Positions 35,431 to 52,772 of a stretch of DNA of 64,000 nucleotides are shown one piece after another. The translations under genes were made by a program, and so were the position numbers. Below the pieces are notes generated by a model. It ran no database searches. It was given only the letters and a program-made list of their open reading frames with translations, and was not told where the DNA came from. Positions within the stretch are counted from its first letter, which is position 1. Each line of letters opens with the position of its first letter. Source of the DNA: Caulobacter vibrioides. Its GTDB lineage: Bacteria > Pseudomonadota > Alphaproteobacteria > Caulobacterales > Caulobacteraceae. Location of the stretch: positions 1-64,000 of the forward strand of contig LNIY01000024.1 of assembly GCA_001449105.1 (NCBI GenBank), given 5' to 3'.

Positions 35431-35517
35431 CAGCCCGTACTCGTCTTCAGAAAAACCGCTTTGGCCTGGGGCGCGTTGAAGACTATCCATGGCGTCCGTT
35501 CTGGATCGTCCGCCCGC

Positions 35518-36129
35518 ATGACCACCGCCGCCCTCTCAGCCGCTCCCGCCAAGAAGCCCCGCCGCAACCGGCGTCGGCGCTCGGCGCGCTGGGCGCGCGC
35601 GGGCCTGCTGGTGCTGGCCGCCGGCGTGTCGCTGACGGTGATCGGCCAGACGGCCTACCGCATGCTCGACGCCCGCAACGCCGCCCGGGCCCAGACCGCC
35701 GCGCCGCTGGCCATGGACAATCCGCGCTTCACCGGCGCCATGCGCGACGGCCGCGCCTTCCTGATCACCGCACGCCGCGCCGAGCGCGACGCGACCGATC
35801 CCAACAAGGTCAAGCTGGTCGAGCCGACCCTGGTGCGCGGCTACGGCGCGCCCGACGCCAGCAAGGTCACCTCCAAGGACGGCGTCTACCAGGAGGCCCA
35901 GAACCTGCTGGTGCTGACCCAGGACGTGAAGATCGACAACGGCCAGGGCTACCAGTTCGCCTCGCAGGAAGCCCGCATCGACACCAAGACCGGCGAGGTC
36001 GTCGGCGGCGCGCCGGTGGCCGGCGCCGGCCCGCGCGGCAATGTCAGCGCCGACAGCTACAGCGTCAGCGACAAGGGCGATCGCGTGGTCTTCAAGGGCC
36101 GCGTCCGCACCCGCGTCCAGCCCCGCTAG
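35518..36129 (+). CDS. LptC-like periplasmic bridge protein
   Basis: A 203 aa bitopic inner-membrane protein of the LptC family. A basic tail and one membrane helix (about 27-45) precede a periplasmic beta-jellyroll domain (NPRFTGAMRDGRAFLITA, then GVYQEAQNLLVLTQDVKI, then NVSADSYSV). LptC passes LPS from the LptB2FG extractor to the LptA bridge. This copy begins the sphingolipid export/synthesis cluster and is not next to lptA or lptB, so it is probably a paralogue serving another lipid. The start at 35518 is the first ATG of the family-like region; its ribosome-binding site is weak. Confidence 0.82.
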   Translation: MTTAALSAAPAKKPRRNRRRRSARWARAGLLVLAAGVSLTVIGQTAYRMLDARNAARAQTAAPLAMDNPRFTGAMRDGRAFLITARRAERDATDPNKVKLVEPTLVRGYGAPDASKVTSKDGVYQEAQNLLVLTQDVKIDNGQGYQFASQEARIDTKTGEVVGGAPVAGAGPRGNVSADSYSVSDKGDRVVFKGRVRTRVQPR

Positions 36130-36141
36130 GTCGACCGCCCC

Positions 36142-37302
36142 ATGAACGGCCTCGGCCTCCTCGACCAGCAGCGCGCCCGCGCCACGCGCGTCTGCTTCCT
36201 CTACATCGCCCAGCCGCACCAGGTGTGGCACAGCCTGTCGATCGCCGTGGCCATGGCTCGCGACTGGCCGGAGATCCGCGTCGAGATCGCCGCCACCTCG
36301 GCCGGCCACCTCGACTACATCCAGGGCATGCTCGACGCCCTGGGCGGCGCGCCCGTCACCCTGCGCCTGCTGCCGCCGGCCTGGCTGCGGCGGATGTCGA
36401 AGAACGCCCCGCCGCCCAAGGCCCTGATGCTGGCCCTGAACGCCGGCCGGCTGTCGACCTACGACGCCGTGGTCACGCCCGAGCGCACCACCGCCCTTCT
36501 GCGCAAGCTGGGCGTCCGCCGCACCGCCCTCGTCTACACCCAGCACGGCGCCGGCGATCGCGGCGGTCCGTTCGAGCCGCGCCTGCGGGTCTTCGACCTG
36601 GTGATGGCCGCCGGCCCCAAGCAGCGCGACCGGATGGTCGACGAGGGCTGGGTCCGCCCGGAAGCCTGCGCCATGGTCGGCTATCCGAAGTTCGACCTGG
36701 TCGACGCCCTGCCGCCCAGCGTGACGCCCGCCTTCGCCCAGGCCCTGCCGACGGTCGTCTACAATCCGCACTTCCATGCCGCCCTCGGCTCGTGGAGCGC
36801 CTTCGGCCTGTCGATCCTCGAGCAGTTCGCCGACGACGAGCGGTTCAACCTGATCTTCGCCCCGCATGTGCGCCTGTTCGAGACCGCGTCCGAAGCCGAT
36901 CGCCGCGCGGTGGCGAGCTTCGAGGGCCATCCGCGCATCCACCTCGATCTCGGCGGCCCGGCCGCCTTCGACATGACCTATACCCGCCTGGCCGATCTCT
37001 ATCTCGGCGACGTCTCCAGCCAGGTCTACGAGTTCCTGCGCACGCCCAAGCCCTGCCTGTTCCTCAATCCGTCACGGGCCGACTGGAAGGGCGACGAGAG
37101 CTTCCATCACTGGCTGTACGGCCCGGTGCGCGAGACCGCCGACGGGATCTGCGACGCGGTCGCCGCCGCCATCGCCGGCCACGGCGACTTCCTGGACGCC
37201 CAGCGCACGGGCGTGGCCCAGACCTTCGACCTGACCGACACTCCCTCGTCGCAGCGCGCCGCCCGCGCCATCGTCGACCGCCTGGCCGTTCTCGACCGAT
37301 GA
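36142..37302 (+). CDS. CDP-glycerol glycerophosphotransferase-like glycosyltransferase
   Basis: A 386 aa GT-B fold protein. The C-terminal half has the TagB/TagF-type signatures VVYNPHFH, IFAPHVRLF and YLGDVSSQVYEFL. The N-terminal half is a less conserved Rossmann-like domain. Relatives transfer glycerol phosphate or other activated groups. Its stop overlaps the flippase start (ATGA) and it lies 12 bases after the LptC-like gene. In this setting it could decorate a sphingolipid head group, but a separate envelope polymer is also possible. Confidence 0.78.
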   Translation: MNGLGLLDQQRARATRVCFLYIAQPHQVWHSLSIAVAMARDWPEIRVEIAATSAGHLDYIQGMLDALGGAPVTLRLLPPAWLRRMSKNAPPPKALMLALNAGRLSTYDAVVTPERTTALLRKLGVRRTALVYTQHGAGDRGGPFEPRLRVFDLVMAAGPKQRDRMVDEGWVRPEACAMVGYPKFDLVDALPPSVTPAFAQALPTVVYNPHFHAALGSWSAFGLSILEQFADDERFNLIFAPHVRLFETASEADRRAVASFEGHPRIHLDLGGPAAFDMTYTRLADLYLGDVSSQVYEFLRTPKPCLFLNPSRADWKGDESFHHWLYGPVRETADGICDAVAAAIAGHGDFLDAQRTGVAQTFDLTDTPSSQRAARAIVDRLAVLDR

Positions 37303-38711
37303 GCTCCGCCTCCCAGGACGCGTCCCCAAAGGACGCGAAGGTCAATCCCCTGACCCGGATGCTGGCCAATGTGGGCGCCCTGCTCAGCGGTCGCGGTCTC
37401 AACGCCATCGTCGGCCTGGCCTATATCGCCGTCACCACCCGCAGTCTCGGCATCGAGGTCTTCGGCTTCCTGACCCTGATCAACGCCTTCGCCCAGGCCC
37501 TGGGCGAGATGGCCAAGTTCCAGTCCTGGCAGACCGTCGTGCAGTACGGCGCCAAGCCGCTGATGGACGGCGACCGCAAGACCTTCCAGCAGGTGATGCG
37601 CCTGGCCCTGGTGCTCGACGGCATCGGCGCGGTGATCGGCGTGGCCATCGGCGTGGGCGGCAGCCTGCTGTTCAGCCACTACATGGGCTGGCCCGACGAG
37701 CTGGCGCCGGAGGCCGCGCTCTACTGCCTGTCGATCGGGGTCATGACCTCGGCCACGGGCGTGGGCCTGCTGCGCCTGTTCGACCGCTTCCGCATGCTGG
37801 CCGCCGAGCAGGTGGTCTCCTCGGCGGTGCGCCTGATCGGCTGCGCGATCGCCGCTTCGATGGACGCGCCGATCGAGATGTTCCTGCTGGCCTGGGCGGC
37901 CGGCACCGTGGCCTCGTTCGTCTATGTCGCCATTATCGCGGTCTGGAGCCTGCTGCAGCGCGGCCTGCTGGACGGCTTCAGCCTCTTTGGCCCCCTTGGC
38001 GCGGGCCTGCCCGGCGTCTGGCGCTTCGCCTGGGCGACCAATTTCAGCAGCACCATCGAGGTCGGCTTCACCCACGTGCTGACCCTGGCCATCGGCGCGC
38101 TGGTCGGCCCCGCCCAGGCCGCCATGTGGCGCGTCGGCCGACAGGTGGCCGACGGCATGGCCAAGCCCGCCCGCCTGATGCTGCCGGCCCTGCATCCCGA
38201 GTTCGCCCGCCTGCGCGCGCAAAAGGACGATGCGGCCATGCTGCGCCTGGCCCGCCAGATCGCCCTGATCGGCGGCGGCGTCGCCGGGGTGCTGCTGGCG
38301 GTCTGCCTGCTGGCCGGCCCCTGGCTGCTGACCATGATCATGGGCGCCGAGTACGCCTCGGCCGCCGGCATCATGAGCTGGCAGGTCGCCGCGGCCGCCA
38401 TCAGCATCATGGCCTTGCCGATCGAGCCGATGCTGGTCTCGATGCACGCGGCCGGCGCGGCCCTGCGCGTGCGCATCGTGGTCATCGCGATCTATTTCGC
38501 CGCTCTCGTGCCGCTGCTGCAGGTCTTCGACCTGACCGGGGCGGGCGCCGCGCTGGTCCTGGCCTCGACCTGCATGGCGATCGGCATGTTCATCACCCTC
38601 CGGTCGCGTCTCGCTGCGGAAGCCGCCGCCGAGCGCGAGGACAAAAGCGCTCTGCCGCTTGAACAGACTTGCGCGGAACCCCGGAACGAGCGCAAAGGCG
38701 ATCCGCAATGA
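37299..38711 (+). CDS. Lipopolysaccharide-type flippase, MOP superfamily (Wzx-like)
   Basis: A 470 aa inner-membrane protein with about 12-14 hydrophobic helices and the polysaccharide-transporter start GRGLNAIVGLAYIAVTTRSLG. Wzx-type proteins flip lipid-linked sugars across the membrane. The ATGA start overlap with the transferase and the ATGA overlap with the acyl-ligase gene make it part of one translationally coupled set. It may flip the sphingolipid or its precursor. The C-terminal tail is charged and cytoplasmic. Confidence 0.85.
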   Translation: MSSASQDASPKDAKVNPLTRMLANVGALLSGRGLNAIVGLAYIAVTTRSLGIEVFGFLTLINAFAQALGEMAKFQSWQTVVQYGAKPLMDGDRKTFQQVMRLALVLDGIGAVIGVAIGVGGSLLFSHYMGWPDELAPEAALYCLSIGVMTSATGVGLLRLFDRFRMLAAEQVVSSAVRLIGCAIAASMDAPIEMFLLAWAAGTVASFVYVAIIAVWSLLQRGLLDGFSLFGPLGAGLPGVWRFAWATNFSSTIEVGFTHVLTLAIGALVGPAQAAMWRVGRQVADGMAKPARLMLPALHPEFARLRAQKDDAAMLRLARQIALIGGGVAGVLLAVCLLAGPWLLTMIMGAEYASAAGIMSWQVAAAAISIMALPIEPMLVSMHAAGAALRVRIVVIAIYFAALVPLLQVFDLTGAGAALVLASTCMAIGMFITLRSRLAAEAAAEREDKSALPLEQTCAEPRNERKGDPQ

Positions 38712-40432
38712 ATACGCCCACCGCTTCCGGCAGGACCGTCCGTCTCGCCGACTTCCCGACCCTGACCGCCGCCCTGGATTTCGCCGCGACCGGCGAGACC
38801 GGGATCAACCTGCATTCGCTGCGCGGCGAACTGGTCGAGGCCCTGACCTACGCGACCTTGCGCGAACAGGCCCAGGGCCTGGCCCGCCGCCTGCTCGCCG
38901 TCGGCGCCCCAGGGGGTGTAAAGGTCGGCGACAGCGTCGCCCTGATCGCCGAGACCGACGGCGACTTCGTGCGCGCCTTCTTCGCCTGCCAGTACGCGGG
39001 CCTGGTCCCGGCCCCCCTGCCCCTGCCCGCGCCGCTGGGCGGCCGCGAGGCCTATATCGAGCAGATCGGCCGCATGTGCGCCTCGGCCCACGCCCGCATC
39101 CTGATCGGTCCGGCCGGCATGGCCGAGTGGCTGACGCAGATCGGCGACGCCGCCGGCCTCGACTTCGCCGCCCCGCTGTCCGCTCTGCCGGAAGACGCCG
39201 GCGCGGCCCTGCCGGAGATCACGCCCGAGCACCCCTGCTACCTGCAGTTCTCGTCGGGCAGCACCCGCTTCCCCACCGGCGTCCTGGTGACCCACAAGGC
39301 CCTGATGGCCAACGCCGTGGCGATCACGCGCGACGGGTTGCAGGTCAAGCCGGAAGACCGCGCCGTCTCGTGGCTGCCGCTCTATCACGACATGGGCCTG
39401 ATCGGCTTCCTGCTCAGCCCCCTGACCAGCCAGATGAGCGTCGACCTGCTGCCCACCGGCGCCTTCGTGCGCCGGCCGCTGCTGTGGCTCGACCTGATCA
39501 GCCGCAACGGCGGCACGATCGCCTACAGCCCGACCTTCGGCTACGAGCTCTGCGCCCGCCGCGCCGAGGCCGCCTCGATCGAGCACCTGGACCTGTCGCG
39601 CTGGCGCAGCGCGGGCCTGGGCGGCGACATGATCCGCACCGCCCCGGTCGAGGCCTTCGCCGAGCGCTTCGCCGCCGTCGGCTTCTCGGAAAAGGCCTAT
39701 GTGGCCAGCTACGGCATGGCCGAGGCGACCCTGGCCCTGTCGATGGCCCCGCTGGGCAAGGGCCTGCGCGTCGAGATCCTCGACATCGAGCGCCTTGAGC
39801 GCGACGACCTGGCCGTCACGGTCGGCGCCGACGCCCCCCGCGCCCGAGCCTTCGCCCGCTGCGGCCCCGCCCTGCCCCACCACCAGCTGGAAGTCCGCGA
39901 CGCCGACGGCAAGCCGGTGGCCGAGCGCCACGTCGGCCGCATCTTCGCCAGGGGTCCCAGCCTCATGGGCGGCTACTTCGAGCAGCCCGAGGAAACCGCC
40001 CGCGTGCTGGACGCCGACGGCTGGCTCGACACCGGCGACCTCGGCTTCCTGGTCGAGGACGAGATCGTCATCACCGGCCGCGCCAAGGACCTGATCATCC
40101 TCAACGGGCGCAACATCTGGCCGCAGGACCTGGAATGGACCGCCGAGCGCGAGGTCCCCGGCCTGCGCAGCGGCGACGTGGCCGCCTTCTCCGTCCCCGG
40201 CGACGCGGCGGAAGAAGAGATCGTCACCATCCTGGTCCAGGCCCGCGGCGGCGACGCCGACAGCCGCGCGGCCCTAGTCGAGACCGTGGCCGGCGTGCTG
40301 CGCTCGCGCCATGGCGTCGAGACCCAGGTCAAGCTGGTCGGCGCCCACGCCCTGCCCCAGACCTCGTCGGGCAAGCTCAGCCGCTCCAAGGCCAAGGCCG
40401 CCTACCTCGCCGGCGCCTACGAGCGCGCCTGA
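38708..40432 (+). CDS. aasR: Acyl-ACP synthetase / fatty acyl-AMP ligase for sphingolipid synthesis
   Basis: A 574 aa adenylate-forming enzyme of the FAAL type. Motifs: FSSGSTRFPTGVLVTHKAL (phosphate loop), WLPLYHDMGLIG, SYGMAEATLA, GWLDTGDLGF and a C-terminal KLSRSKAKAAY lysine. It adenylates a fatty acid and loads it onto a carrier protein, here the ACP two genes on. It matches the gene I know as aasR in C. crescentus ceramide synthesis. The ATGA overlap with the flippase fixes the start. Confidence 0.88.
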   Translation: MNTPTASGRTVRLADFPTLTAALDFAATGETGINLHSLRGELVEALTYATLREQAQGLARRLLAVGAPGGVKVGDSVALIAETDGDFVRAFFACQYAGLVPAPLPLPAPLGGREAYIEQIGRMCASAHARILIGPAGMAEWLTQIGDAAGLDFAAPLSALPEDAGAALPEITPEHPCYLQFSSGSTRFPTGVLVTHKALMANAVAITRDGLQVKPEDRAVSWLPLYHDMGLIGFLLSPLTSQMSVDLLPTGAFVRRPLLWLDLISRNGGTIAYSPTFGYELCARRAEAASIEHLDLSRWRSAGLGGDMIRTAPVEAFAERFAAVGFSEKAYVASYGMAEATLALSMAPLGKGLRVEILDIERLERDDLAVTVGADAPRARAFARCGPALPHHQLEVRDADGKPVAERHVGRIFARGPSLMGGYFEQPEETARVLDADGWLDTGDLGFLVEDEIVITGRAKDLIILNGRNIWPQDLEWTAEREVPGLRSGDVAAFSVPGDAAEEEIVTILVQARGGDADSRAALVETVAGVLRSRHGVETQVKLVGAHALPQTSSGKLSRSKAKAAYLAGAYERA

Positions 40433-40433
40433 G

Positions 40434-41384
40434 GTGGAAAGCGCCGGGACCATCGCCGTCACCGGCGCCACCGGCTTCCTCGGCCAGCACCTGGTGCGCG
40501 CCATCGCCGAACGGGGCCTGACGCCCCGCATCCTGTCGCGTCGCGACCCGATCTCGCCGTTCTGGCGCGGGATCGAGCCGCAGGTCGTGCTGGGGGACCT
40601 GTCCAACGCCACGGCCCTGGATCGCCTGTGCGACGGCGCCGGGGTGGTGGTCCACCTGGCCGGCCTGATCAAGGCGGCCGACCGCGCGGCCTTCGACAAG
40701 GTCAATGTCGACGGCGCCCGGGCGTCAGCTAAGGCCGCGACGCGTGCCGGGGCCCGCTTCGTGCTGGTTTCCAGCCTCGCCGCGCGCGAGCCGCAGCTCT
40801 CCGACTACGCCGCCAGCAAGCGCGCGGGCGAGGAGGCGGTGCTGGCCGTCGCGCCCGACGCCCTGATCGTCCGCCCGCCGGCCATCTACGGCCCCGGCGA
40901 CCGCGAGACCGTCGGCCTGTTCGCCGCCGCGCAGGGCAGCCGCGTCCTGCCCGTGCTGTCGCCGGCCTCGCGCGTGGCGATGATCGAGGTGCGCGACGCC
41001 GCCGCCCAGATCCTCGACCTCGTGGCCGCCGGCCGCACGGGCCTGGCCTCGATCTGCGACGCGCGCCCCGACGGCTACGCCTGGACCGAGATCATGGGCG
41101 CCGCCGCGGCCGCCGTCGGCTCGCCGGCGCCCCGCCTGCTGCGGGTGCCCGAAGGGCTGATCCGCGCGGCCGGAAGCATCGCCGATCTGGCGAGTAAGCT
41201 CTCAAAACAACCCTCGGTGTTCGGATCAGGCAAGGCGCGCGAACTGTCGCATGCAGATTGGGCGTTTTCGGACGATCCATCCCTTGCGTCGTCGCCGAGT
41301 CGTCACGATGTTGCCCGCGGCTTCGGCGACACCGTCGACTGGTATCGGTCGGCCGGCTGGTTGTCGAAAAAATACAGCGACTAG
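40434..41384 (+). CDS. cerR: NAD(P)-dependent 3-oxo-ceramide reductase, extended SDR
   Basis: A 316 aa extended short-chain dehydrogenase. The nucleotide loop is GATGFLG (11-17); the catalytic set is S113/S114, Y125 and K129 (DYAASK). By context it is CerR, which reduces the 3-oxo group after N-acylation of ketosphinganine in bacteria. The start is GTG at 40434, one base after the aasR stop. The coding run ends 79 bases before acpR, where a dyad-rich gap suggests a separate promoter. Confidence 0.88.
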   Translation: MESAGTIAVTGATGFLGQHLVRAIAERGLTPRILSRRDPISPFWRGIEPQVVLGDLSNATALDRLCDGAGVVVHLAGLIKAADRAAFDKVNVDGARASAKAATRAGARFVLVSSLAAREPQLSDYAASKRAGEEAVLAVAPDALIVRPPAIYGPGDRETVGLFAAAQGSRVLPVLSPASRVAMIEVRDAAAQILDLVAAGRTGLASICDARPDGYAWTEIMGAAAAAVGSPAPRLLRVPEGLIRAAGSIADLASKLSKQPSVFGSGKARELSHADWAFSDDPSLASSPSRHDVARGFGDTVDWYRSAGWLSKKYSD

Positions 41385-41718: not shown

Positions 41719-42933
41719 ATGGGTCTGTTCGACAAGCACCTGGCCTATCGCGACGCGTACAAGGCCATCCAGCAAGCGGGCGCCGACCCGTTCACCGTCC
41801 GTTTCGACGCCGTGGTCTCGCCGACCGAGGGCATCGTCGACGGTCGTCCCACCATCCTGCTGGGCACCAACAACTATCTGGGCCTGACCTTTGACGAGAA
41901 GGCGATCGCCGCCTCGGTCAAGGCCGTCCAGGAACGTGGCACCGGCACCACCGGTTCCCGCATCGCCAACGGCAGCTTCGAGGCCCACGTGGCCCTGGAG
42001 ACAGCGCTGGCCAAGTTCTACGGCCGCAAGCACGCCATGGTGTTCACCACCGGCTATCAGGCCAACCTGGGCGTCCTGTCGACCCTGGTCGGCCGCGGCG
42101 ACCACCTGATCCTCGACGCCGACAGCCACGCCTCGATCTATGACGGCTCGCGCCTGGGCCACGCCGAGGTCATCCGCTTCCGCCACAACGATCCCGAAGA
42201 CCTGGCCAAGCGCCTGCGTCGCCTCAAGGACGTCCCGGGCGAGCGCCTGATCGTCGTCGAAGGCATCTATTCGATGATCGGCGACACCGCGCCGCTCAAG
42301 GAAATCGCCGCCGTTAAGCGCGAGATGGGCGGCTACCTGCTGGTCGACGAGGCCCACTCGATGGGCGTGCTCGGCGCCACCGGCCGGGGCCTGGCCGAGG
42401 CCGCGGGCGTGGAAGACGACGTCGACTTCATCGTCGGCACCTTCTCCAAGAGCCTGGGCGCCATCGGCGGCTTCTGCGTGTCCAGCCTGGACGACTTCGA
42501 AGTCATGCGGGTGATCTGCCGCCCGTACATGTTCACCGCCTCGCTGCCGCCGGCCGTGGTCGCCTCGACCCTGGTGGCGCTGGAGCAGATGATCGCCAAG
42601 CCGCAGCTGCGCGAGCAGCTGAACAGCAACGCCTGCCGCCTGTACGACGGCCTCACCGCGCTGGGCTTCGTCACCGGCCCGGCCGCCAGCCCGATCGTCG
42701 CGGCCACCATGCCCGACGTCGAGCGCGCCATCGCCATGTGGAACGGCCTGCTGCAGTCGGGCGTCTACCTGAACCTCGCCCTGCCGCCGGCCACGCCCGA
42801 CAGCCGCCCGCTGCTGCGCGCCAGCATCAGCGCCGCCCACACCCACGAGCAGATCGACCAGGTCCTCAAGGTGTTCGCCGAAGTCGGCACGGCGCTCGGC
42901 GTCATCGACGGCCAGCAGCGCGCCTTCGCTTAA
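41719..42933 (+). CDS. spt: Serine palmitoyltransferase
   Basis: A 404 aa PLP enzyme of the alpha-oxoamine synthase family. PLP lysine K244 lies in TFSKSLGA; H137 (DSHAS) stacks on the ring; D210 and H213 are in VDEAHS; GTGTTGSR is the acyl-pocket motif. It condenses serine with an acyl thioester to 3-ketosphinganine. AONS and KBL share the fold, but adjacent AcpR, CerR and AasR genes fit serine palmitoyltransferase. A strong terminator follows. Confidence 0.92.
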   Translation: MGLFDKHLAYRDAYKAIQQAGADPFTVRFDAVVSPTEGIVDGRPTILLGTNNYLGLTFDEKAIAASVKAVQERGTGTTGSRIANGSFEAHVALETALAKFYGRKHAMVFTTGYQANLGVLSTLVGRGDHLILDADSHASIYDGSRLGHAEVIRFRHNDPEDLAKRLRRLKDVPGERLIVVEGIYSMIGDTAPLKEIAAVKREMGGYLLVDEAHSMGVLGATGRGLAEAAGVEDDVDFIVGTFSKSLGAIGGFCVSSLDDFEVMRVICRPYMFTASLPPAVVASTLVALEQMIAKPQLREQLNSNACRLYDGLTALGFVTGPAASPIVAATMPDVERAIAMWNGLLQSGVYLNLALPPATPDSRPLLRASISAAHTHEQIDQVLKVFAEVGTALGVIDGQQRAFA

Positions 42934-43525: not shown

Positions 43526-44436
43526 CCGCCTCGCGTCCTGCGCCACTTCCACAGGCCCAGCAGGATGCCCGGCGCGGCCAGCACCGGATGGCGCTCGCGC
43601 CAGGGGGTCAGCACCACCTTGAAGCCGGTATGGCGCTCGATCTTCCAGGCGGCGTAGCGGGCCGCGCCCTGGAAGGTGAAGGCCGCTTTGACCAGGCGCG
43701 CCACGTTCAGCGACTTGCCGAGATTGCGCCGCAGCCGCCAGGCTGCCGTCAGGCGCTTGCGCTCGACGGGCGACATCTCGGGCGCGGGCCTGCCCTCGCC
43801 GTCGAACCGGCCGTCATCGGCCCAGCAGGCCGGCAGCAGGCGCTGGTAGTGCGCCGGATCGAACGCCAGGATCGAGGCCTCGCGGCCGGCCTTCTCGACC
43901 CGGAACTCGGCGGCGTAGGTCTCCTGGAACAGCGCCGTCCAGTAGGCTTCCGGCGGCCCGTCCTCGGGGCCGAGCGCCGTGGCGAAACGGGCGGCGGTGC
44001 GGGCGGCGCGGCGGACGGCCTCGACCACCGCCTCGCGCGCGGCCTCGTCGGCGGCCCAGACGAGGCCCGAGGGCTGCACGAAGCGGGTCCACAGGGTGGT
44101 GTCGATCCCCCTGCCCCTCACCGCCTGCGAAAACCGCGACAGGGTCATCGAGGCGACCTTGGCCCGCAGGGTGAGGCCCTCGTGCTCCAGCTCATGATAG
44201 CTGACGTCGGGCCACAATATGCGGGTGGCCACGCCGCGCAGGCCGCGCGGCGGCCGCTCGGTCAGGACGTAGAAATCGAGAACGCCCGAAAGGTCGCCCG
44301 TGCGCAGGATCGAGCCGTAGAACAGCACCGCCCGCGCGGTCGGAAACAGGCCCGTCAGGTGTTCGGCGAAGGCGCGGATCGGCGCCGGGATCGGCTGCGC
44401 CAGTTCGGCCTCGACCAGCGGCCGGACCGCGCTCAT
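43522..44436 (-). CDS. Nucleotidyltransferase-fold protein, sphingolipid head-group gene
   Basis: A 304 aa protein. The segment YGSILRTGDLSGVLDFYVL (40-58) matches a minimal nucleotidyltransferase core (GS, then D54), but the second aspartate of DxD is tyrosine (D54-F-Y56). The remainder is helical and basic near the C-terminus. Its ATG overlaps the kinase stop (ATGA). It corresponds by order to one of the cpgABC genes needed for ceramide phosphoglycerate in C. crescentus. Whether it transfers a nucleotide is doubtful. Confidence 0.72.
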   Translation of the reverse strand: MSAVRPLVEAELAQPIPAPIRAFAEHLTGLFPTARAVLFYGSILRTGDLSGVLDFYVLTERPPRGLRGVATRILWPDVSYHELEHEGLTLRAKVASMTLSRFSQAVRGRGIDTTLWTRFVQPSGLVWAADEAAREAVVEAVRRAARTAARFATALGPEDGPPEAYWTALFQETYAAEFRVEKAGREASILAFDPAHYQRLLPACWADDGRFDGEGRPAPEMSPVERKRLTAAWRLRRNLGKSLNVARLVKAAFTFQGAARYAAWKIERHTGFKVVLTPWRERHPVLAAPGILLGLWKWRRTRGG

Positions 44437-45344
44437 CCGACCACGAACCGCAGCGGCGCGCCCAGGGCCAGGGCCAGCTTGCCGCCCTCGAACACCTCGC
44501 CGTCGAGCACGAAGTCGAACTGGCCCGAGGCATAGAGCGCGGCCGGATCGCGTCGGCGATAGCCGCGCGTCTCCAGGATCGGCTTGGACTTGCCCGACAG
44601 CACGGTCGGCAGCATCCGCAGCAGGCGCTGGGGCGGTGCATCGACATCCAGCACCTTCAACCCCTCCCGCGGCGGGCCGAAGGGCTTGAGATCGAACGGC
44701 AGGCGCTTCAGCGCCGTGGCCAGCAGCACGAAGCGCTCGCCAGCGGGCTGGGCTTCGCCGTCCATGGCCACCTTCACCGCCACGCCCTGGCGCCATTGGT
44801 CGCGGGCGCCGCCGAACAGCGCGCCCAGGGTGGCGCCGGCCAGGGTCACCGCCACCGACAGGCTCTGGAACACGCCCATGCGGTTGACGCGCTTGGACAG
44901 GGCCGTGGCCCGCACAAGCGCGCCCAGCCCGAAGAAGAAGCCCCGCAGCGGCGGACGGCCGTCGGCGAAGCGCACCTCGAGCGGAGCGCGGATCTTCACC
45001 CGAGGCTCGGCCTGGGCGGCGGCGACCAGGGCCTCCTCCAGCCGCCAGTCGCGCGGCGCGCCCAGGTCGATGGCCAGCACGTTGGTCTTGCCCGACGGCA
45101 GGATCGCCAGCATCGGCATGTCGTCGCCGAAGGTCGAGGGCGTCAGGCCCAGGACGTCGCGCACCGTTCCGTCGCCGCCGTCGATGACCAGCAGGTCGAT
45201 CTTCTCCTCGGCGAAGCGGGCCAGTTCCTCGCCCAGCGCCTCGCGCGTCGCCGGCTCGACCACGCGCACGCCCTGCGGCGTGGGCGCATGCACCCGGCCC
45301 TGGTTGGCGTGGCTACGCGGGTTCCTGACGACGCCGACGCGCAT
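44433..45344 (-). CDS. cpgB: Lipid kinase, ceramide kinase type (DAGK catalytic domain)
   Basis: A 303 aa kinase with the diacylglycerol/sphingosine kinase fold. The ATP loop is GGDGTV (56-61), followed by ILPSGKTNVLA and, in the second domain, DGEAQP and FVLDGEVFEGG. It should phosphorylate ceramide on the cytoplasmic face. In C. crescentus the gene in this position is cpgB, reported as a ceramide kinase. Start and stop overlap both neighbours, so the three head-group genes are translated together. Confidence 0.85.
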   Translation of the reverse strand: MRVGVVRNPRSHANQGRVHAPTPQGVRVVEPATREALGEELARFAEEKIDLLVIDGGDGTVRDVLGLTPSTFGDDMPMLAILPSGKTNVLAIDLGAPRDWRLEEALVAAAQAEPRVKIRAPLEVRFADGRPPLRGFFFGLGALVRATALSKRVNRMGVFQSLSVAVTLAGATLGALFGGARDQWRQGVAVKVAMDGEAQPAGERFVLLATALKRLPFDLKPFGPPREGLKVLDVDAPPQRLLRMLPTVLSGKSKPILETRGYRRRDPAALYASGQFDFVLDGEVFEGGKLALALGAPLRFVVG

Positions 45345-46468
45345 CAGCGCGACAGCCAGGACTGGATCGAGCCCTTCGGCGCGAGCGCGCCCTGCACGAT
45401 CTGCAGGGCGTGGACCAGGAAGCAGATCGCCGTCCAGACCGCCACCAGCACGAAGCCGATGTCGGGCCGGCCGACCAGCACGCTGCCGGTCAGCAGGATC
45501 AGGTTCGGGTTGCGGCGGGCGGTGATCAGCCGGAAGAAGCTGTCGAACGGCCGCCAGGCGTGCATCTCCAGCTTGAAGAGCGACAGGAAGATCCCCTCCT
45601 CCACCCGCTGGGCCACGTAGCCGCCGACGACGATGGCCAGCAGCCACGGCGCGTAAGGCATCGACAGGCCGACGGCGAACACGCCGACGTACCAGGCCCA
45701 CCACCAGAACGGCGGGTGCACCAGGTCGATGCCGTGGTCGAAGACATTGCCCCACTTGGACGAGGTCAGGGTCACGCGGGCCAGCTTGCCGTCGACGGTG
45801 TCGAGGAAGGTCATGATCCAGGCGCAGACCAGGCCCCAGCCGAAGTGGCCGCGCCAGAACAGCACGAAGGCGGCGATTGTCAGCAGGAAGCCGATGAAGG
45901 TCACCTGGTTCGGCGTCATCTTGGCAAGGGCGCACCAGCGGGTGACGATCCGCGCCGGGGTCGGCCAGACGTACTTGGTGACCAGATCGGTGACGCCCTT
46001 GTACGAGCCCTGGAACAGGCGCTTCTCGACCGCGCGCACGCTGTCCTTGGTCAGGCGCTCCAGCACCGGCGGCTCGCGCTTGCGCAGGGCGCTGTTGTAG
46101 GCCGAGCCCAACTCCAGCGCCGTCAGGCGGGTAAAGCGGGCGTCGATCGTCGAGGGATCCTTGCCTTCGGCCAGGGCCGCGACCGCGCCTTGCGCGACCT
46201 CGGCCGGCGCGTTCACCGCCGTCGGCGCGCCCGCGTCGTCGATCAGCACCGCCCATGGCCGGCCGGCCAGGGCCTTGATCAGCGACTCGTCGAACACCCA
46301 GCCGGCATGGACCGCGATCGCGTCACCGCCCTCGTTCGCGACTTCCGGAACGCCGATCCGGCGATAGATGCGCGACAGCCGCTCGCCCGAGGTCATGCCC
46401 CAGATCCGCGCCTCGCTGGCGCCCACCGTCACGGCGCGCGGAACGACTGGATTGATTTCGCCGGTCAC
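45344..46468 (-). CDS. CDP-alcohol phosphatidyltransferase-family protein with N-terminal domain
   Basis: A 374 aa membrane protein. Residues about 10-130 form a soluble domain starting RAVTVGASEARIWGMTSGERL. The membrane part has a perfect CDP-alcohol motif: D223, D226-G227, A230-R231, G240, D244, D248. Such enzymes join a CDP-alcohol to a second alcohol, here presumably in building the sphingolipid head group; it is one of the cpgABC-type genes. The start is GTG at 46468, kept because the N-terminal motif needs it. Confidence 0.85.
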   Translation of the reverse strand: MTGEINPVVPRAVTVGASEARIWGMTSGERLSRIYRRIGVPEVANEGGDAIAVHAGWVFDESLIKALAGRPWAVLIDDAGAPTAVNAPAEVAQGAVAALAEGKDPSTIDARFTRLTALELGSAYNSALRKREPPVLERLTKDSVRAVEKRLFQGSYKGVTDLVTKYVWPTPARIVTRWCALAKMTPNQVTFIGFLLTIAAFVLFWRGHFGWGLVCAWIMTFLDTVDGKLARVTLTSSKWGNVFDHGIDLVHPPFWWWAWYVGVFAVGLSMPYAPWLLAIVVGGYVAQRVEEGIFLSLFKLEMHAWRPFDSFFRLITARRNPNLILLTGSVLVGRPDIGFVLVAVWTAICFLVHALQIVQGALAPKGSIQSWLSR

Positions 46469-48134: not shown

Positions 48135-48572
48135 ATGCCCAACCCCACAGCCCTCGCATTCGGCTACCCACGCTCGAAAGTGGCCGAAACCGACCACTGG
48201 TTGGTCCTTGTACGTCCCAAGCAGCCGACTTTCGGGTCTCTCGTCCTGGTATGCAAGGAACCCGTGCAGGCGTTCTCGGATCTGAGTCCCGAGGCCTTCG
48301 CCGACATGGGGATCGCCGTCGCCGGAATCGAACGCCTGCTGAAGGCCAGGATCGCCTACGAGAAGATCAACTATCTGATGCTGATGATGGTCGACCGCGA
48401 CGTCCATTTCCACGTCCTGCCCCGCTACGAGGGCGCGCGCGAACACGAGGGGCAGAGCTTCCCTGACACCGGTTGGCCCGCCGCCCCGGCGCTCGGCTCG
48501 GCCGTCGCGCTGGACGACGCCGCCGTCGAGCGCCTCGCCGACGATTTCGCAGCCGCGTGGTCCGCCGCGTGA
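48135..48572 (+). CDS. HIT-like protein, first gene of the LptF-LptG-CerS operon
   Basis: A 145 aa protein of the histidine-triad superfamily. The triad region reads DVHFHVLPRY: H91 and H93 are present but the third histidine is leucine (HFHVL). HIT proteins hydrolyse or transfer nucleotide-phosphate bonds. The missing residue suggests altered chemistry, as in the GalT/APA branches. Its stop TGA overlaps the GTG start of the LptF-like gene, so expression is coupled to the exporter. Confidence 0.75.
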   Translation: MPNPTALAFGYPRSKVAETDHWLVLVRPKQPTFGSLVLVCKEPVQAFSDLSPEAFADMGIAVAGIERLLKARIAYEKINYLMLMMVDRDVHFHVLPRYEGAREHEGQSFPDTGWPAAPALGSAVALDDAAVERLADDFAAAWSAA

Positions 48573-49798
48573 GCAAGCTGAAGAAGAAGTTCGACGTGCG
48601 GCGGCTGACGGCCATGGGCCTGATCGACCGCTACCTGCTGCGCCTGCTGGGCTGGCCGCTGGCCGGATGCCTTGGCCTGACCGTGGTGGCCCTGCTGCTC
48701 GAGCGCGTGCTGCGCCTGCTCGACCTCCTATCGCAAAGCGCCGCCCGCTTCGACTACGTCACCCAGCTGGCCTTGAACCTCTTGCCGCACTATCTGGGCC
48801 TGGCCCTGCCGGTGGCGTTCTTCGTCGCCCTGTTCATCGTCATCAGCAAGCTGTCGGACGGCTCGGAGATCGACGCCCTGCTGGCCGGCGGCCAGTCGCT
48901 GGAGCGCATCGCCGCGCCCTTCGTCTGCATCGGCCTGGCGCTCAGCATCTTCAGCGTCGCGGTGTTCGGCTACGTCCAGCCCTACAGCCGCTACGCCTAT
49001 CGCGCCGTGATGCACGCCGCCGTCAACGCCGGCTGGAACGGTCGCCTCTCGGGCGGGGCCTTCATCGACGACGACGGCTCGCTGATGACCGCCGACAGCG
49101 CCGACCTCGCCGGCCAGCGCCTGACCCGCGTCTTCATCCGCCGCCCCGACGCGGCCGGCCACGAGGAGCTGATCACCGCCGCCAGCGCCACGCTTCAAGT
49201 CTCGGCCGACGGCAAGACCGTGACCATGCGCCTGAAGTCGGGCCGCCGCATCGGCAGCGACGCACGCGGCAACTACCGGAGCCTGGCCTTCGACGACCTG
49301 ACCACCGAGGCCCCGCTGAAGGCCGCCGCCAGCCTGCTGCGGGCCCGCGGCGGCGACGAGCGCGAGCTGACCCTGGGCGAGCTGCTGCACCAGGCCAAGT
49401 CGCCCAATCCGGTCGTGCCCAAGGCCACGCTGATGGCCGAGTTCTACGGGCGTATCGCCCGCGCCGCCTTCCTGCCGTTCCTGCCGCTGCTGGCCTTCCC
49501 GCTGGGCCTGGCCGCCAAGCGCGGCAACCGCGCGCCGGGCCTGCTGCTGGCCGGGGTGCTGCTGCTGGCCTTCCAGCACAGCCTGCTGCTGGGCCAGAGC
49601 CTGGCCGAATCCGGCCGCATCGCCTCGCTGCCCGCCGTCGGCCTGCCGTTCCTGATCTTCACGGGCCTGGCCGTCTGGCTGTTCGTCGGCAGCCGCACGC
49701 GGCCCGGCGACACCCCGATCTCGCGCCTCGTCCTGGCCATGAGCGCCCAGTTCCGCCGCGCCCTCAAGCCGTTCCAGCGCAAGGAGCGCGCCGCATGA
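48569..49798 (+). CDS. LptF-like permease of an Lpt-type lipid exporter
   Basis: A 409 aa inner-membrane protein of the LptF/LptG (YjgP/YjgQ) family: three helices near the N-terminus (LIDRYLLRLLGWPLAGCLG onward), a periplasmic beta-jellyroll (about 140-290), and three C-terminal helices (FLPFLPLLAFPLGLAAKR). LptF with LptG and the LptB ATPase extracts lipid from the inner membrane. I chose GTG 48569 for its overlap with the previous stop; ATG 48614 would give 394 aa. No LptB gene is nearby, so it would borrow LptB or another ATPase. Confidence 0.83.
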   Translation: MSKLKKKFDVRRLTAMGLIDRYLLRLLGWPLAGCLGLTVVALLLERVLRLLDLLSQSAARFDYVTQLALNLLPHYLGLALPVAFFVALFIVISKLSDGSEIDALLAGGQSLERIAAPFVCIGLALSIFSVAVFGYVQPYSRYAYRAVMHAAVNAGWNGRLSGGAFIDDDGSLMTADSADLAGQRLTRVFIRRPDAAGHEELITAASATLQVSADGKTVTMRLKSGRRIGSDARGNYRSLAFDDLTTEAPLKAAASLLRARGGDERELTLGELLHQAKSPNPVVPKATLMAEFYGRIARAAFLPFLPLLAFPLGLAAKRGNRAPGLLLAGVLLLAFQHSLLLGQSLAESGRIASLPAVGLPFLIFTGLAVWLFVGSRTRPGDTPISRLVLAMSAQFRRALKPFQRKERAA

Positions 49799-50856
49799 AG
49801 CTGCAGCTCTACGTCCTGCGCACCGTCGCCACCCGCGCGCTCGGCGCCGTCCTGATCCTGATGGCCATCCTGCAGATCCTCGACCTGCTGGAAGTCACCA
49901 CCGACATCCTCGATCGCGGCCTCGGCGTCGGCGGGGTCGCCTACTACGCCGCCCTGCGCGCCCCGGCCCTGTTCCAGCAGGTCGCGCCCCTGGCGGTGCT
50001 GGCCGGCGGCCTGTTCGCCTTCTCGCAGCTGGCCCGCGAGAACGCCGTGGTGGCCATGCGCGCCGCCGGCATCTCGGGCTATCGCATCGTCGCCATGGCC
50101 GTTCCGGTGGCGATCGCCGTGCTGGCGCTCGACGCCCTGTGCGCCCAGGTGGTCTCGCCGCGCACCGATCCGACGCTCAGCGCCTGGTGGGCCGCCACCA
50201 CGCCGGTCGCCGAGCGCAAGCCCGCCGCCGCGCGCACCTTCCGCGCCGGCGAGGACCTGGTCACCGCCAAGGAAGCGACCGCCAACGGCGCGCGCCTGAC
50301 CGAGCTGACCATCTATCGCCGCGACAACTCCGGCGCCCTGACCGAGCGCGTCGTCGCCCCGTCGGCCCAGTTCCAGAACGGCGCCTGGCGGCTGCAATCG
50401 CCAGTGACCACGCGCTATCTGGGCGACCGGGTCGAGCCGATGACCGCCGCCTCGGCCACCTGGCCCACGGCCCTGCGTCCGGCCGATGTGCAGGCGCTGT
50501 TCGCCGACGCCCCCGCCCCGTCCGCCGCCTCGGCCCGCCGCGCGCTGGAGAACGGCGGCTCCGACCGCCCGCAGAGCTTCTACGCCACCCGCCTGCAGAC
50601 GGCCTTCTCCGGCCCGATCGCGGCGCTGGTCATGCTGCTGCTCAGCGCCCCGGTGGCCTGGGCCAACTTCCGCAGCGGCCAGGGCGCGGTCCTGCTGACC
50701 ACGGGCCTGGCCGCCGGCCTGCTGTTCCTGGTCGCCGACGGCCTGCTGTCGGCCCTGGGCGAATCCGGCTCGCTGTCGCCGATCCTGGCCGCCTGGGCCG
50801 CCCCCGTCGTCTTCGCCGCCCTCGCCGTGCGCGCCTTCGTGTCCCTGGAGGGATGA
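49795..50856 (+). CDS. LptG-like permease of an Lpt-type lipid exporter
   Basis: A 353 aa LptF/G-family membrane protein and partner of the preceding gene. The N-terminal helices read YVLRTVATRALGAVLILMAILQILDLLE. The coupling region (QLARENAVVAMRAAGISGYRI) is the segment that contacts LptB in the true complex. A periplasmic domain (about 110-250) and three final helices follow. It overlaps LptF (ATGA) and CerS (ATGATG). Sequence cannot tell whether it carries LPS or sphingolipid; its position favours the latter. Confidence 0.84.
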   Translation: MKLQLYVLRTVATRALGAVLILMAILQILDLLEVTTDILDRGLGVGGVAYYAALRAPALFQQVAPLAVLAGGLFAFSQLARENAVVAMRAAGISGYRIVAMAVPVAIAVLALDALCAQVVSPRTDPTLSAWWAATTPVAERKPAAARTFRAGEDLVTAKEATANGARLTELTIYRRDNSGALTERVVAPSAQFQNGAWRLQSPVTTRYLGDRVEPMTAASATWPTALRPADVQALFADAPAPSAASARRALENGGSDRPQSFYATRLQTAFSGPIAALVMLLLSAPVAWANFRSGQGAVLLTTGLAAGLLFLVADGLLSALGESGSLSPILAAWAAPVVFAALAVRAFVSLEG

Positions 50857-52010
50857 TGCCTTTCGATTCCGCGTCCGAGGCGATCTCGGTCCTGCCCGTG
50901 CGCACGCCCGATGAGCTGAAGCGCTTCATCGCCCTGCCCGCGCGCCTCAACGCCAAGGACCCCCACTGGATCACGCCGCTGACCCTGGAGCGGACCGAGG
51001 CCCTGTCGCCCAAGACCAACCCGTTCTTCCAGCACGCCGAGGTGCAGCTGTTCCTGGCCGTGCGCGGCGGCCGCGACGTCGGCCGGATCAGCGCCCAGAT
51101 CGACGAGCTGACCCCGCAGAAGACGCCCGGGCGCCTGGACGGCCACTTCGGCCTGATCGCCGCCGAGGACGACGCCGAGGTCTTCGCCGCCCTGCTGCTC
51201 ACGGCCGAGGCCTGGCTGCGCGAGCGCGGCCGCACCCACGTGATGGGTCCGTTCAACCTGTCGATCAACGAGGAGGTCGGCCTGCTGGTCGACGGCTTCG
51301 ACACTCCGCCGATGGTGATGATGGGCCATGATCCGGCCTATGCCGGGGGCCGCGTCGAGCAGCAGGGCTACGCCAAGGCCAAGGACGTCTACGCCTACTA
51401 CGCGCCGATGCACGTCGACCTGCCGCCGGCCGTGCGTCGCCGGGCCGAGCGGCCGCCGGCCGAGGGCGTGGTGCTGCGCCAGCTGGACATGAGCCGCTAC
51501 GACGAGGAAGTGGTCACCCTGACCGACATCCTCAACGACGCCTGGAAGGACAACTGGGGCTTCACCCCCACCACCGAGGCCGAGACCGCCCAGCTGGCCA
51601 AGGCCCTCAAGGCCGTGATCGACAAGCGCCTGACCTGGTTCGCCGAGATCGACGGCGAGGCCGCCGGCTTCCTGGTGTTCCTGCCCAACGTCAACGAGGC
51701 CATCGCCGATCTCGACGGCAAGCTGCTGCCGTTCGGCTGGGCCAAGCTGCTGTGGCGGCTGAAGGTCAAGCGCGTGAAGTCGGCCCGCATCCCGCTGATG
51801 GGCGTGAAGCGCAAGTTCGCCGAGAGCATCCGCGGCCGCATGCTGCCGTTCCAGATGATGCACGCGGGCCGCACCTCGGCGCTCGCGCTGGGCTACGAGC
51901 GGTTCGAAATCTCGTGGGTGCTGGAAGAGAACATGCCCATGCGTCGCATCGCCGAGGCCATCGGCTCGCAGGTCTACAAGACCTATCGCATCTATGAGAA
52001 GGCGCTCTAG
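50856..52010 (+). CDS. cerS: Bacterial ceramide synthase, GNAT-like
   Basis: A 384 aa protein that matches what I know as bacterial ceramide synthase in C. crescentus: an N-terminal RFIALPARLNAKDPHWITPLTLER region, NPFFQHAEVQLFLAVRGG, MGPFNLSINEEVGLLVDGF, and a C-terminal GNAT domain (LNDAWKDNWGFTPTTEAE, then WFAEIDGEAAGFLVFLPNVNE). It N-acylates 3-ketosphinganine with an acyl-CoA. The start codon at 50856 has GGAGG four bases upstream; ATG 50853 is in frame. It is co-translated with LptG. Confidence 0.87.
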   Translation: MPFDSASEAISVLPVRTPDELKRFIALPARLNAKDPHWITPLTLERTEALSPKTNPFFQHAEVQLFLAVRGGRDVGRISAQIDELTPQKTPGRLDGHFGLIAAEDDAEVFAALLLTAEAWLRERGRTHVMGPFNLSINEEVGLLVDGFDTPPMVMMGHDPAYAGGRVEQQGYAKAKDVYAYYAPMHVDLPPAVRRRAERPPAEGVVLRQLDMSRYDEEVVTLTDILNDAWKDNWGFTPTTEAETAQLAKALKAVIDKRLTWFAEIDGEAAGFLVFLPNVNEAIADLDGKLLPFGWAKLLWRLKVKRVKSARIPLMGVKRKFAESIRGRMLPFQMMHAGRTSALALGYERFEISWVLEENMPMRRIAEAIGSQVYKTYRIYEKAL

Positions 52011-52772
52011 GTGAGCCAGCCGTTCAAGGCTCTGGTCCTGGCCGGCTCGCGGCCGGGCGAGATCGACAGCGCCGCGGCCTATGCCGGCGTCTCGCACAAG
52101 GGCCTGATCACGCTGGAGGGGCGCACCCTGCTCGACCGCGTGCTGGGCGCCGTCCAGGCGGCGGGCGCGCAGGCCATCGGCGTCTCGACCTCCGACGCGG
52201 CCATCGCCCAGGCCCTGCCCCAAGGCGTTCGCGCCATCGCCGCCTCGACCGAAGGTCCCAGCCAGAGCGTCCGCGAAGGCGCCGAGACCCTGGGCTTTCC
52301 GCTGCTGATCACCACGGTCGACCACGCGCTGCTGAAGCCCGAGTGGATCACCCAGTTCCTGGCCGACGCCCCGGCCGGCGCCGACGTCGCCCTGATGCTG
52401 GCCCCGGAGGAGCGCGTCCGTGCGGCCGCCCCCGACACCAAGCGCACCTATCTTGCGTTCCGCGACGGCCGCTTCTCGGGCTGCAACCTCTTCCTGTTCC
52501 GCAGCGAGGCCGCCCTGCCCGCCATCGCCCTGTGGCGCCGCGTCGAGCAGAACCGCAAGCAGCCCTGGAAGATCGCCGCCATGCTCGGCCCGGGCCTGCT
52601 GGTCCGCTACCTGCTGGGCCTGCTGACCCTCGACGAGGCCATCGCGCGCCTGGGCCTGCTGGCCGGCGTCAAGGCCGCCGCCGTGCGTGCGCAGGACGGC
52701 CTGGCCGCCGTCGACGTCGACAAACCCGCCGACCTCGACCTGGTGCGCCGGATCGTCGGCGAGACGGCCTAG
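52011..52772 (+). CDS. MobA-like NTP transferase domain protein
   Basis: A 253 aa Rossmann-like nucleotidyltransferase. The start FKALVLAGSRPGEID carries the nucleotide-binding LAGSRPG, and TTVDHALLKPEW includes a metal-binding aspartate. Relatives make NDP- or CMP-activated compounds (molybdopterin, choline, sugars). It starts with GTG one base after the cerS stop, so it is the last gene of the LptF-LptG-cerS operon. It could activate the sphingolipid head-group precursor, such as a glycerate or glycerol derivative; this is inference. Confidence 0.8.
   Translation: MSQPFKALVLAGSRPGEIDSAAAYAGVSHKGLITLEGRTLLDRVLGAVQAAGAQAIGVSTSDAAIAQALPQGVRAIAASTEGPSQSVREGAETLGFPLLITTVDHALLKPEWITQFLADAPAGADVALMLAPEERVRAAAPDTKRTYLAFRDGRFSGCNLFLFRSEAALPAIALWRRVEQNRKQPWKIAAMLGPGLLVRYLLGLLTLDEAIARLGLLAGVKAAAVRAQDGLAAVDVDKPADLDLVRRIVGETA

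Follow-up and report, generated by a model that had tools for sequence, protein, structure and literature searches.

In E. coli, the permeases LptF and LptG are coupled to LptB through two glutamates, LptF E84 and LptG E88 (PMC5082905), and lipopolysaccharide (LPS) is contacted by basic residues of LptG, K40 at the lipid A 4'-phosphate and K41 at the core (PMC6744409), according to the sections of those papers covered here. For Caulobacter crescentus, a 2024 paper named LptC2, LptF2, and LptG2 (CC_1168, CC_1156, and CC_1155) and proposed that they transport phosphosphingolipid from the inner to the outer membrane in analogy with LPS; the sections covered present the proposal as untested, and give a cofitness with CC_1159 of 0.78 for CC_1168 and 0.60 for CC_1156 (PMC11324152). 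The window, by which we mean the whole 64,000-nucleotide stretch analyzed here (positions 1 to 64,000 of contig 24 of a Caulobacter vibrioides genome, 5.32 Mb in 160 contigs), contains such a pair, lptF2 and lptG2, directly upstream of the ceramide synthase gene cerS. Judged by gene order and content, the window cluster is the CC_1168-CC_1152 cluster of C. crescentus, as far as the same sections describe it, and LptF2 is 90 to 99% identical to LptF2 of Caulobacter endophyticus, C. zeae, C. radicis, C. hibisci, and two further strains. The preliminary description of the window singled the pair out as its best candidate for an under-described system, and its inference repeats the 2024 proposal; the open-licence literature searched yielded no further relevant paper on LptF2, LptG2, LptC2, or the CC locus tags. 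New here are a class-wide survey, trees that separate two permease types, the finding of single LptA, LptB, and LptD, and the apparently local character of LptC2. We regard it as very probable that LptF2 and LptG2 are a sphingolipid-specific permease pair on an LptB/LptA/LptD machine shared with LPS.

A second permease pair in the window genome

LptF2 and LptG2 are both members of the LptF_LptG family PF03739 (198.3 and 227.2 bits; cutoff 27.9), and both score below the canonical equivalog cutoffs of their best NCBIfam models, LptF2 with 177.9 bits against TIGR04407 (LptF; cutoff 230) and LptG2 with 231.5 bits against TIGR04408 (LptG; cutoff 240). An AlphaFold model of LptF2 (predicted local distance difference test score, 81.6) predicts an LptF fold: helices surround a six-strand insertion, like the membrane helices and periplasmic β-jellyroll of LptF and LptG, and the top PDB matches are LptF and LptG chains (best E value, 2.1e-14; template modeling scores, 0.53/0.61).

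Four PF03739 genes were found in the genome, the window pair and a second pair at C2:108366-110572 (contig 2), so the window pair was rejected as the sole lptFG. The two pairs are far apart in sequence, with 24% identity between LptF2 and its counterpart in the same genome and 32% for LptG2. The genome also contains two LptC genes, a single LptA-type domain, a single LptD, and one LptB over the family cutoff among 57 ABC matches; LptA and LptB were counted in this genome only. Contig 98 carries the canonical lptC, lptA, and lptB together, and contig 2 carries lptD next to the canonical lptFG pair. The inference of the preliminary description that the window carries paralogous copies of lptF, lptG, and lptC is therefore borne out, since separate copies of each were found; sharing of LptB, LptA, and LptD with LPS, one of the two options that it named, fits the single match for each.

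We propose a second extractor of the LptB2FG type, in which LptF2 and LptG2 would be the transmembrane subunits and would pair with the cell's only LptB ATPase. Its substrate would be the sphingolipid that the cluster itself makes (ceramide phosphoglycerates in Caulobacter), which would pass to the components in use for LPS, LptC, LptA, and the one LptD, and so reach the outer leaflet. The two permease pairs would then be interchangeable substrate modules on one bridge.

Permease copy number and type across the Alphaproteobacteria

CerS, PF03739, and LpxC were searched on the same set of 389 alphaproteobacterial genomes, each at least 95% complete. A genome was scored CerS positive if it had a match to the window CerS at an E value of ≤1e-10, a few of these matches being weak (29 to 40% identity in family f19), and LpxC negative if it gave no PF03331 match, LPS status being judged by LpxC alone. 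Genomes, loci, and families carry G, L, and f numbers, the survey families being numbered rather than named. CerS was found in 62 genomes and LpxC in 341; of the 48 LpxC-negative genomes, 20 were named and the other 28 were taken as missing from the list of 341 positives.

LptF/G copy number follows the predicted lipids. The 316 genomes with LpxC and without CerS had two LptF/G copies in 299 cases, more in 9, and fewer in 8, while those with both LpxC and CerS (n = 25) had four or five copies in 22 cases and two in 3. Among the 37 genomes with CerS and without LpxC, two copies were found in 26, none in 6, one in 1, three in 3, and four in 1; the remaining class, with neither (n = 11), showed no copy in 6 genomes and two in 5. 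At least four LptF/G genes were thus present in 22/25 genomes predicted to make both lipids versus 2/364 others (Fisher P = 1.4e-30, a value that ignores kinship), and 12 of 14 families hold at least one LpxC- and CerS-positive genome with this number. A closer search of 40 genomes showed that the surplus in G307, G355, and G346 consists of fragments under the cutoff, and once those of G307 and G355 are dropped, 28/37 LpxC-negative, CerS-positive genomes have one pair; the five copies of G018 include two contig-edge pieces. Co-occurrence of a second pair with cerS, a check proposed in the preliminary description, holds across the class of 389 genomes with exceptions (9 of the 62 CerS-positive genomes).

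LpxC was missing in 37/62 CerS-positive versus 11/327 CerS-negative genomes. The 37 genomes, four of which are single contigs (G009, G048, G098, and G242), span 13 numbered families, and because f21, f27, f59, f61, and f69 also contain LpxC-positive members, LpxC was probably lost repeatedly.

Trees were built from the LptF/G genes of 61 survey genomes, those of the window, and those of E. coli K-12 (159 domains, or 189 with named relatives); the sample with LpxC and without CerS covered 20 of 316 genomes, mostly those with listed match positions and hence high scorers. LptF and LptG each split into a type 1 and a type 2, with SH-aLRT (Shimodaira-Hasegawa-like approximate likelihood ratio test) support in the 189-domain tree of 98.3 for F1, 99.7 for F2, 100 for G1, and 98.5 for G2, a split that is deep in these sequence trees. 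Type 1 comprises the pairs of all 20 fetched LpxC-positive, CerS-negative genomes, of the three two-copy genomes with LpxC and CerS, and of G042, and type 2 those of all 23 fetched LpxC-negative, CerS-positive genomes; 12 genomes with LpxC and CerS, that of the window included, carry both (G187 with its fourth gene unplaced). In these trees, of the kind that the preliminary description had asked for, LptF2 and LptG2 of the window fall outside the type 1 clade of LpxC-positive, CerS-negative genomes and within type 2. Rooting of the duplication was dropped, as E. coli joins type 2 in LptG and, weakly, type 1 in LptF.

Hidden Markov models, one for each of the four groups, placed every training member correctly and assigned a further seven LpxC-negative and three LpxC-positive genomes to type 2. 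The 37 LpxC-negative, CerS-positive genomes then comprise 30 with type 2, 6 with no LptFG, and 1 unclassified (G308, one truncated copy), every classified one having type 2 without type 1. The 25 genomes with LpxC and CerS comprise 15 with both types, 3 whose second pair is E. coli-like, 1 whose second pair is divergent, 3 with type 1 only, and 3 unclassified (G116, G304, and G169). G358 was typed from LptG only, and loci L206, L208, and L209 were left out. Permease type and predicted lipid are thus doubly dissociated.

Type 2 genes lie within 10 kb of cerS in 41/45 genomes (29/30 without LpxC and 12/15 with it, counted from match positions). Among named loci, the best 80 of 513 relatives of the window LptF2, of which 33 are Caulobacter-like, cerS is at most 3.2 kb away in 73, gammaproteobacteria included (downstream in 72, and upstream on the other strand in L167); the remaining seven break off at a contig edge no more than 0.6 kb from lptF or lptG. 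The adjacency of lptF2/lptG2 and cerS is therefore not chance. G254, which lacks LpxC, carries a second type 2 pair and a second cerS match (L059 and L060), as if running two sphingolipid export modules. In G181, an additional LptF-like gene stands closer to type 2. L160, on a contig labelled as a Devosia metagenome-assembled genome (MAG), holds a Caulobacter-like cluster whose LptG2 piece shows 88% identity, which may reflect a binning error.

The same data bear on the idea that LptF2 and LptG2 are a second LPS exporter, or one used at times of stress, that lies in the ceramide cluster by happenstance. Their membership in the LPS permease family and the LpxC of this genome would agree with it, but type 2 is carried by 30/30 classified LpxC-less, CerS-positive genomes, the type 2 clade holds none of the pairs from the 20 fetched genomes with LpxC and without CerS, and the basic LPS-contact residues of LptG are mostly lost in type 2 (see below). 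We consider this explanation very unlikely. Paralogy and a role in sphingolipid export, as suggested in the preliminary description, are supported by copy number, permease type, and cerS linkage, the function itself being predicted from genomes.

Other Lpt components and diagnostic residues

LptC and LptD were searched in 80 genomes (62 CerS positive, 4 with neither LpxC nor CerS, and 14 with LpxC only). LptD is single in all 25 genomes with LpxC and CerS, in G169 as two contig-edge pieces, and present in 32/37 with CerS only. Near LptC, LptB was found in 9/10 stretches from genomes with CerS only and in 4/4 from those with LpxC and CerS, and LptA in 8/10 and 4/4. The 80 named clusters contain ceramide and headgroup genes and gave no match to the LptA, LptC, or LptD of this genome, the LptD search having no positive control among the loci; dedicated copies in the clusters were rejected on these grounds. 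ABC-ATPase matches occur in 6/80 clusters and are 28 to 33% identical to LptB, versus 55 to 65% for the LptB genes near LptC. These matches are generic, and the type 2 pair must therefore draw its other components from genes outside the clusters.

A wholly separate machine, in which LptF2 and LptG2 have LptB, LptA, and LptD paralogues of their own, is improbable in our estimation. The search could have overlooked paralogues that diverge strongly from the family models, and the genome has 56 weaker ABC-ATPase matches; against this stand the single LptA, LptB, and LptD of the genome, the single LptD of all 25 genomes with LpxC and CerS, the content of the 80 clusters, and the coupling glutamate, which type 2 retains as a group.

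The second LptC calls for a narrower reading than the one in the preliminary description, which made it part of the exporter. The LptC-like gene at 35518-36129 matches PF06835 (62.6 bits; cutoff 21) and falls below the cutoff of the NCBIfam model TIGR04409 (35 versus 38), and a second LptC does exist. It does not look like a general part, however: the other 24/24 genomes with LpxC and CerS have one LptC, and among the 25 only that of the window has LptC2 besides LptC1 (PF06835 misses some LptC proteins, 14/37 LpxC-negative, CerS-positive genomes showing none). LptC2 has its closest relative in the LptC1 of the same genome (44 to 49% identity; none of the 27 further LptC proteins compared exceeds 33%), and the two form a group with the LptC of G366, a CerS-negative congener, although the bootstrap value of this Caulobacter trio is only 61. 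A core role for LptC2 was rejected on this basis; it looks like a local duplicate, probably a Caulobacterales refinement.

We compared type 2 with the residues known from E. coli. The coupling glutamate is kept in 36/36 type 2 LptF and 35/36 type 2 LptG proteins. The window LptF2 keeps it; the window LptG2, the one exception, has alanine there and a glutamate two residues earlier. This arrangement recurs in 31/33 Caulobacter-like loci (78 of the 80 named loci were readable), while L143 and L144, Caulobacterales MAG loci, have glutamate at both positions, like an intermediate, and the 45/45 named loci outside the Caulobacter-like set have the usual one. At LptG positions 40 and 41, at least one basic residue is present in 38/39 type 1 proteins and in 6/36 of type 2 (none in 30/36); the window LptG2 has T and D. 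In LptF, E29 and K/R30 are found in 33/36 and 35/36 type 2 proteins versus 0/38 and 2/38 of type 1; the window counterparts, E45 and R46, together with an invariant R49, make up an E-[KR]-x-x-R motif in the first transmembrane helix (TM1). The residue patterns suggest that a charged lipid-binding site may have moved from LptG towards LptF. At the position of LptG K34, another LPS contact, aspartate predominates in both types (32/39 in type 1 and 32/36 in type 2), so that type 1 of the Alphaproteobacteria, too, is unlike E. coli in this respect. Nothing was drawn from LptF R292, where the alignment columns look shifted between the types.

Exceptions, gene neighborhood, and comparison with known systems

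Several observations weigh against a sphingolipid-specific pair on a shared machine. Nine of the 62 CerS-positive genomes lack any second pair. Six of these, G377 and the five genomes of genus g50 in family f49 (G048, G206, G266, G319, and G368), lack LpxC and gave no LptFG match at all; the g50 genomes have CerS and Spt with no match for LpxC, LptFG, LptC, or LptD, and no LptFG was seen in their cerS neighborhoods (L097, L099, and L225 to L227), while G377 keeps LptD and has no LptFG or LptC match. The other three, G024, G057, and G354, have LpxC and CerS and no permeases other than type 1. In G024 and G354 the CerS match is weak (37% and 33%, respectively); G057 has LpxC and matches for aasR, cerR, spt, and cerS, and CerS therefore does not always need type 2. 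In G182 and G263 (by tree) and probably G362 (by score pattern only), all with LpxC and CerS, the second pair is E. coli-like, near cerS in G263 and G362 and on another contig in G182 (L027, L033, and L224 for G182, G263, and G362), which suggests independent recruitment or transfer in place of type 2. The second pair of G346 is divergent, its LptG, unlike its LptF, falling with type 2 in the 189-domain tree, and G015, one of the 20 fetched genomes with LpxC and without CerS, has a divergent second pair outside both types (LptF scores, 72.6 for type 2 versus 34.0 for type 1). G042 lacks LpxC and CerS yet keeps type 1, four further two-copy genomes of this class being unclassified. The alanine of the window LptG2 also counts against it, as does the use of LpxC as the single marker of LPS status. 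Type 2 is the usual solution and not the sole one.

Some of these loci have further features. Between spt and cerS, L097 has a metallophosphoesterase gene and L094 (G057) a fatty acid hydroxylase gene (PF04116); the divergent pairs of L072 (G015, with no CerS match) and L035 (G346) have long branches, and their LptF copies group together.

In the window, the HIT-domain gene overlaps the start of lptF2, lptF2 that of lptG2, and lptG2 that of cerS, as the preliminary description had reported and rereading of the sequence confirmed; to their left lie spt, cerR, aasR, the flippase-like gene, and the LptC-like gene (Table 1). The GTG start of lptF2 was checked in the 33 Caulobacter-like loci (L114 to L146), of which 24 were readable by script: GTG followed by a Ser/Thr codon precedes the same conserved stretch in 20/24, which supports this start, and a downstream ATG, kept in just 5/24, was rejected.

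Table 1. Genes of the ceramide cluster in the window
Feature	Coordinates	Strand	Remarks
lptC2 (CC_1168 orthologue)	35518..36129	+	ORF (open reading frame) opens at 35461; PF06835, 62.6 bits; LptC tree
Putative flippase (CC_1166 orthologue)	37299..38711	+	PF01943, 36.1 bits (cutoff 28.2); ATG at 37299
aasR, acyl-CoA/ACP synthetase of ceramide synthesis	38708..40432	+	ORF opens at 38669; ATG at 38708; PF00501, 172 bits
cerR, epimerase-family reductase	40311..41384	+	ORF opens at 40311; PF01370 from residue 48; true start probably downstream of aasR
spt, serine palmitoyltransferase	41719..42933	+	PF00155, 174 bits; recurrent neighbor
Ceramide-kinase-like gene (CC_1160 orthologue by position)	44433..45344	-	PF00781 in enclosing ORF; ATG at 45344; recurrent neighbor
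CC_1159 orthologue by position (headgroup gene)	45344..46468	-	Recurrent neighbor; role from covered sections of PMC11324152
HIT-domain gene (CC_1157 orthologue)	48135..48572	+	PF01230, 24.9 bits (cutoff 21.5); ends TGA, overlaps lptF2 (GTGA)
lptF2, type 2 LptF (CC_1156 orthologue)	48569..49798	+	409 aa; GTG start at 48569; PF03739, 198 bits; tree type 2; AlphaFold model matches solved LptF chains
lptG2, type 2 LptG (CC_1155 orthologue)	49795..50856	+	353 aa; ATG start at 49795 (ATGA overlap); PF03739, 227 bits; tree type 2
cerS, bacterial ceramide synthase (CC_1154 orthologue)	50856..52010	+	Position and relatives; name by position from covered sections of PMC11324152; ATG at 50853 also possible (ATGATG)
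Nucleotidyltransferase-like gene (CC_1153 orthologue by position)	52011..52772	+	PF12804, 55 bits; recurrent neighbor

The HIT gene was judged probably unrelated to the pathway in the covered sections of PMC11324152. It is found in 67/80 related loci and lies directly 5' of lptF2, which makes a part in the pathway possible. Its lack of an assigned role, and the many headgroup genes of the cluster, would leave room for export of another lipid that coevolves with CerS, or of a headgroup intermediate; as cerS, spt, and the kinase gene recur as partners in distantly related taxa, and the lipids reported from the cluster are sphingolipids (PMC11324152, sections covered), we consider this explanation, too, very unlikely.

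On the reading we prefer, a sphingolipid-specific pair on the shared machine, it is moderately probable that type 2 LptFG let alphaproteobacteria drop LPS, the Lpt bridge, LptD included, having been turned over to sphingolipids in 30/37 LpxC-negative, CerS-positive genomes. If so, LptD would be a sphingolipid translocon and the LPS identity of an outer membrane would depend on the permease cartridge that the cell carries; an exchange of permeases on the Lpt machine would account for the ability of many Gram-negative lineages to live without LPS. LptB, LptA, and LptD would be needed beyond LPS, which would matter for antibiotics aimed at them and for inferring LPS from the presence of lpt genes.

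LptC2, LptF2, and LptG2 of C. crescentus are the same genes in the same cluster as those of the window. The sections of PMC11324152 covered report orthologues in six other species and contain no copy-number or LPS-loss test, both of which are given here; we found no LPS-loss test in print within one open-licence literature collection. An Lpt-type system in an LPS-less diderm has also been described from Borrelia burgdorferi, which, unlike the host of the window, is a spirochaete (PMC10353723, in the part covered). Type 2 resembles the LptB2FGC complexes of E. coli and Shigella, as described in the covered sections of PMC6744409 and PMC5082905, in family, in the predicted fold of LptF2, and in the coupling glutamate of the group; unlike them, it mostly lacks the basic residues at LptG 40 and 41, has the charged motif in LptF TM1, adjoins ceramide genes, and is carried by LpxC-less genomes.

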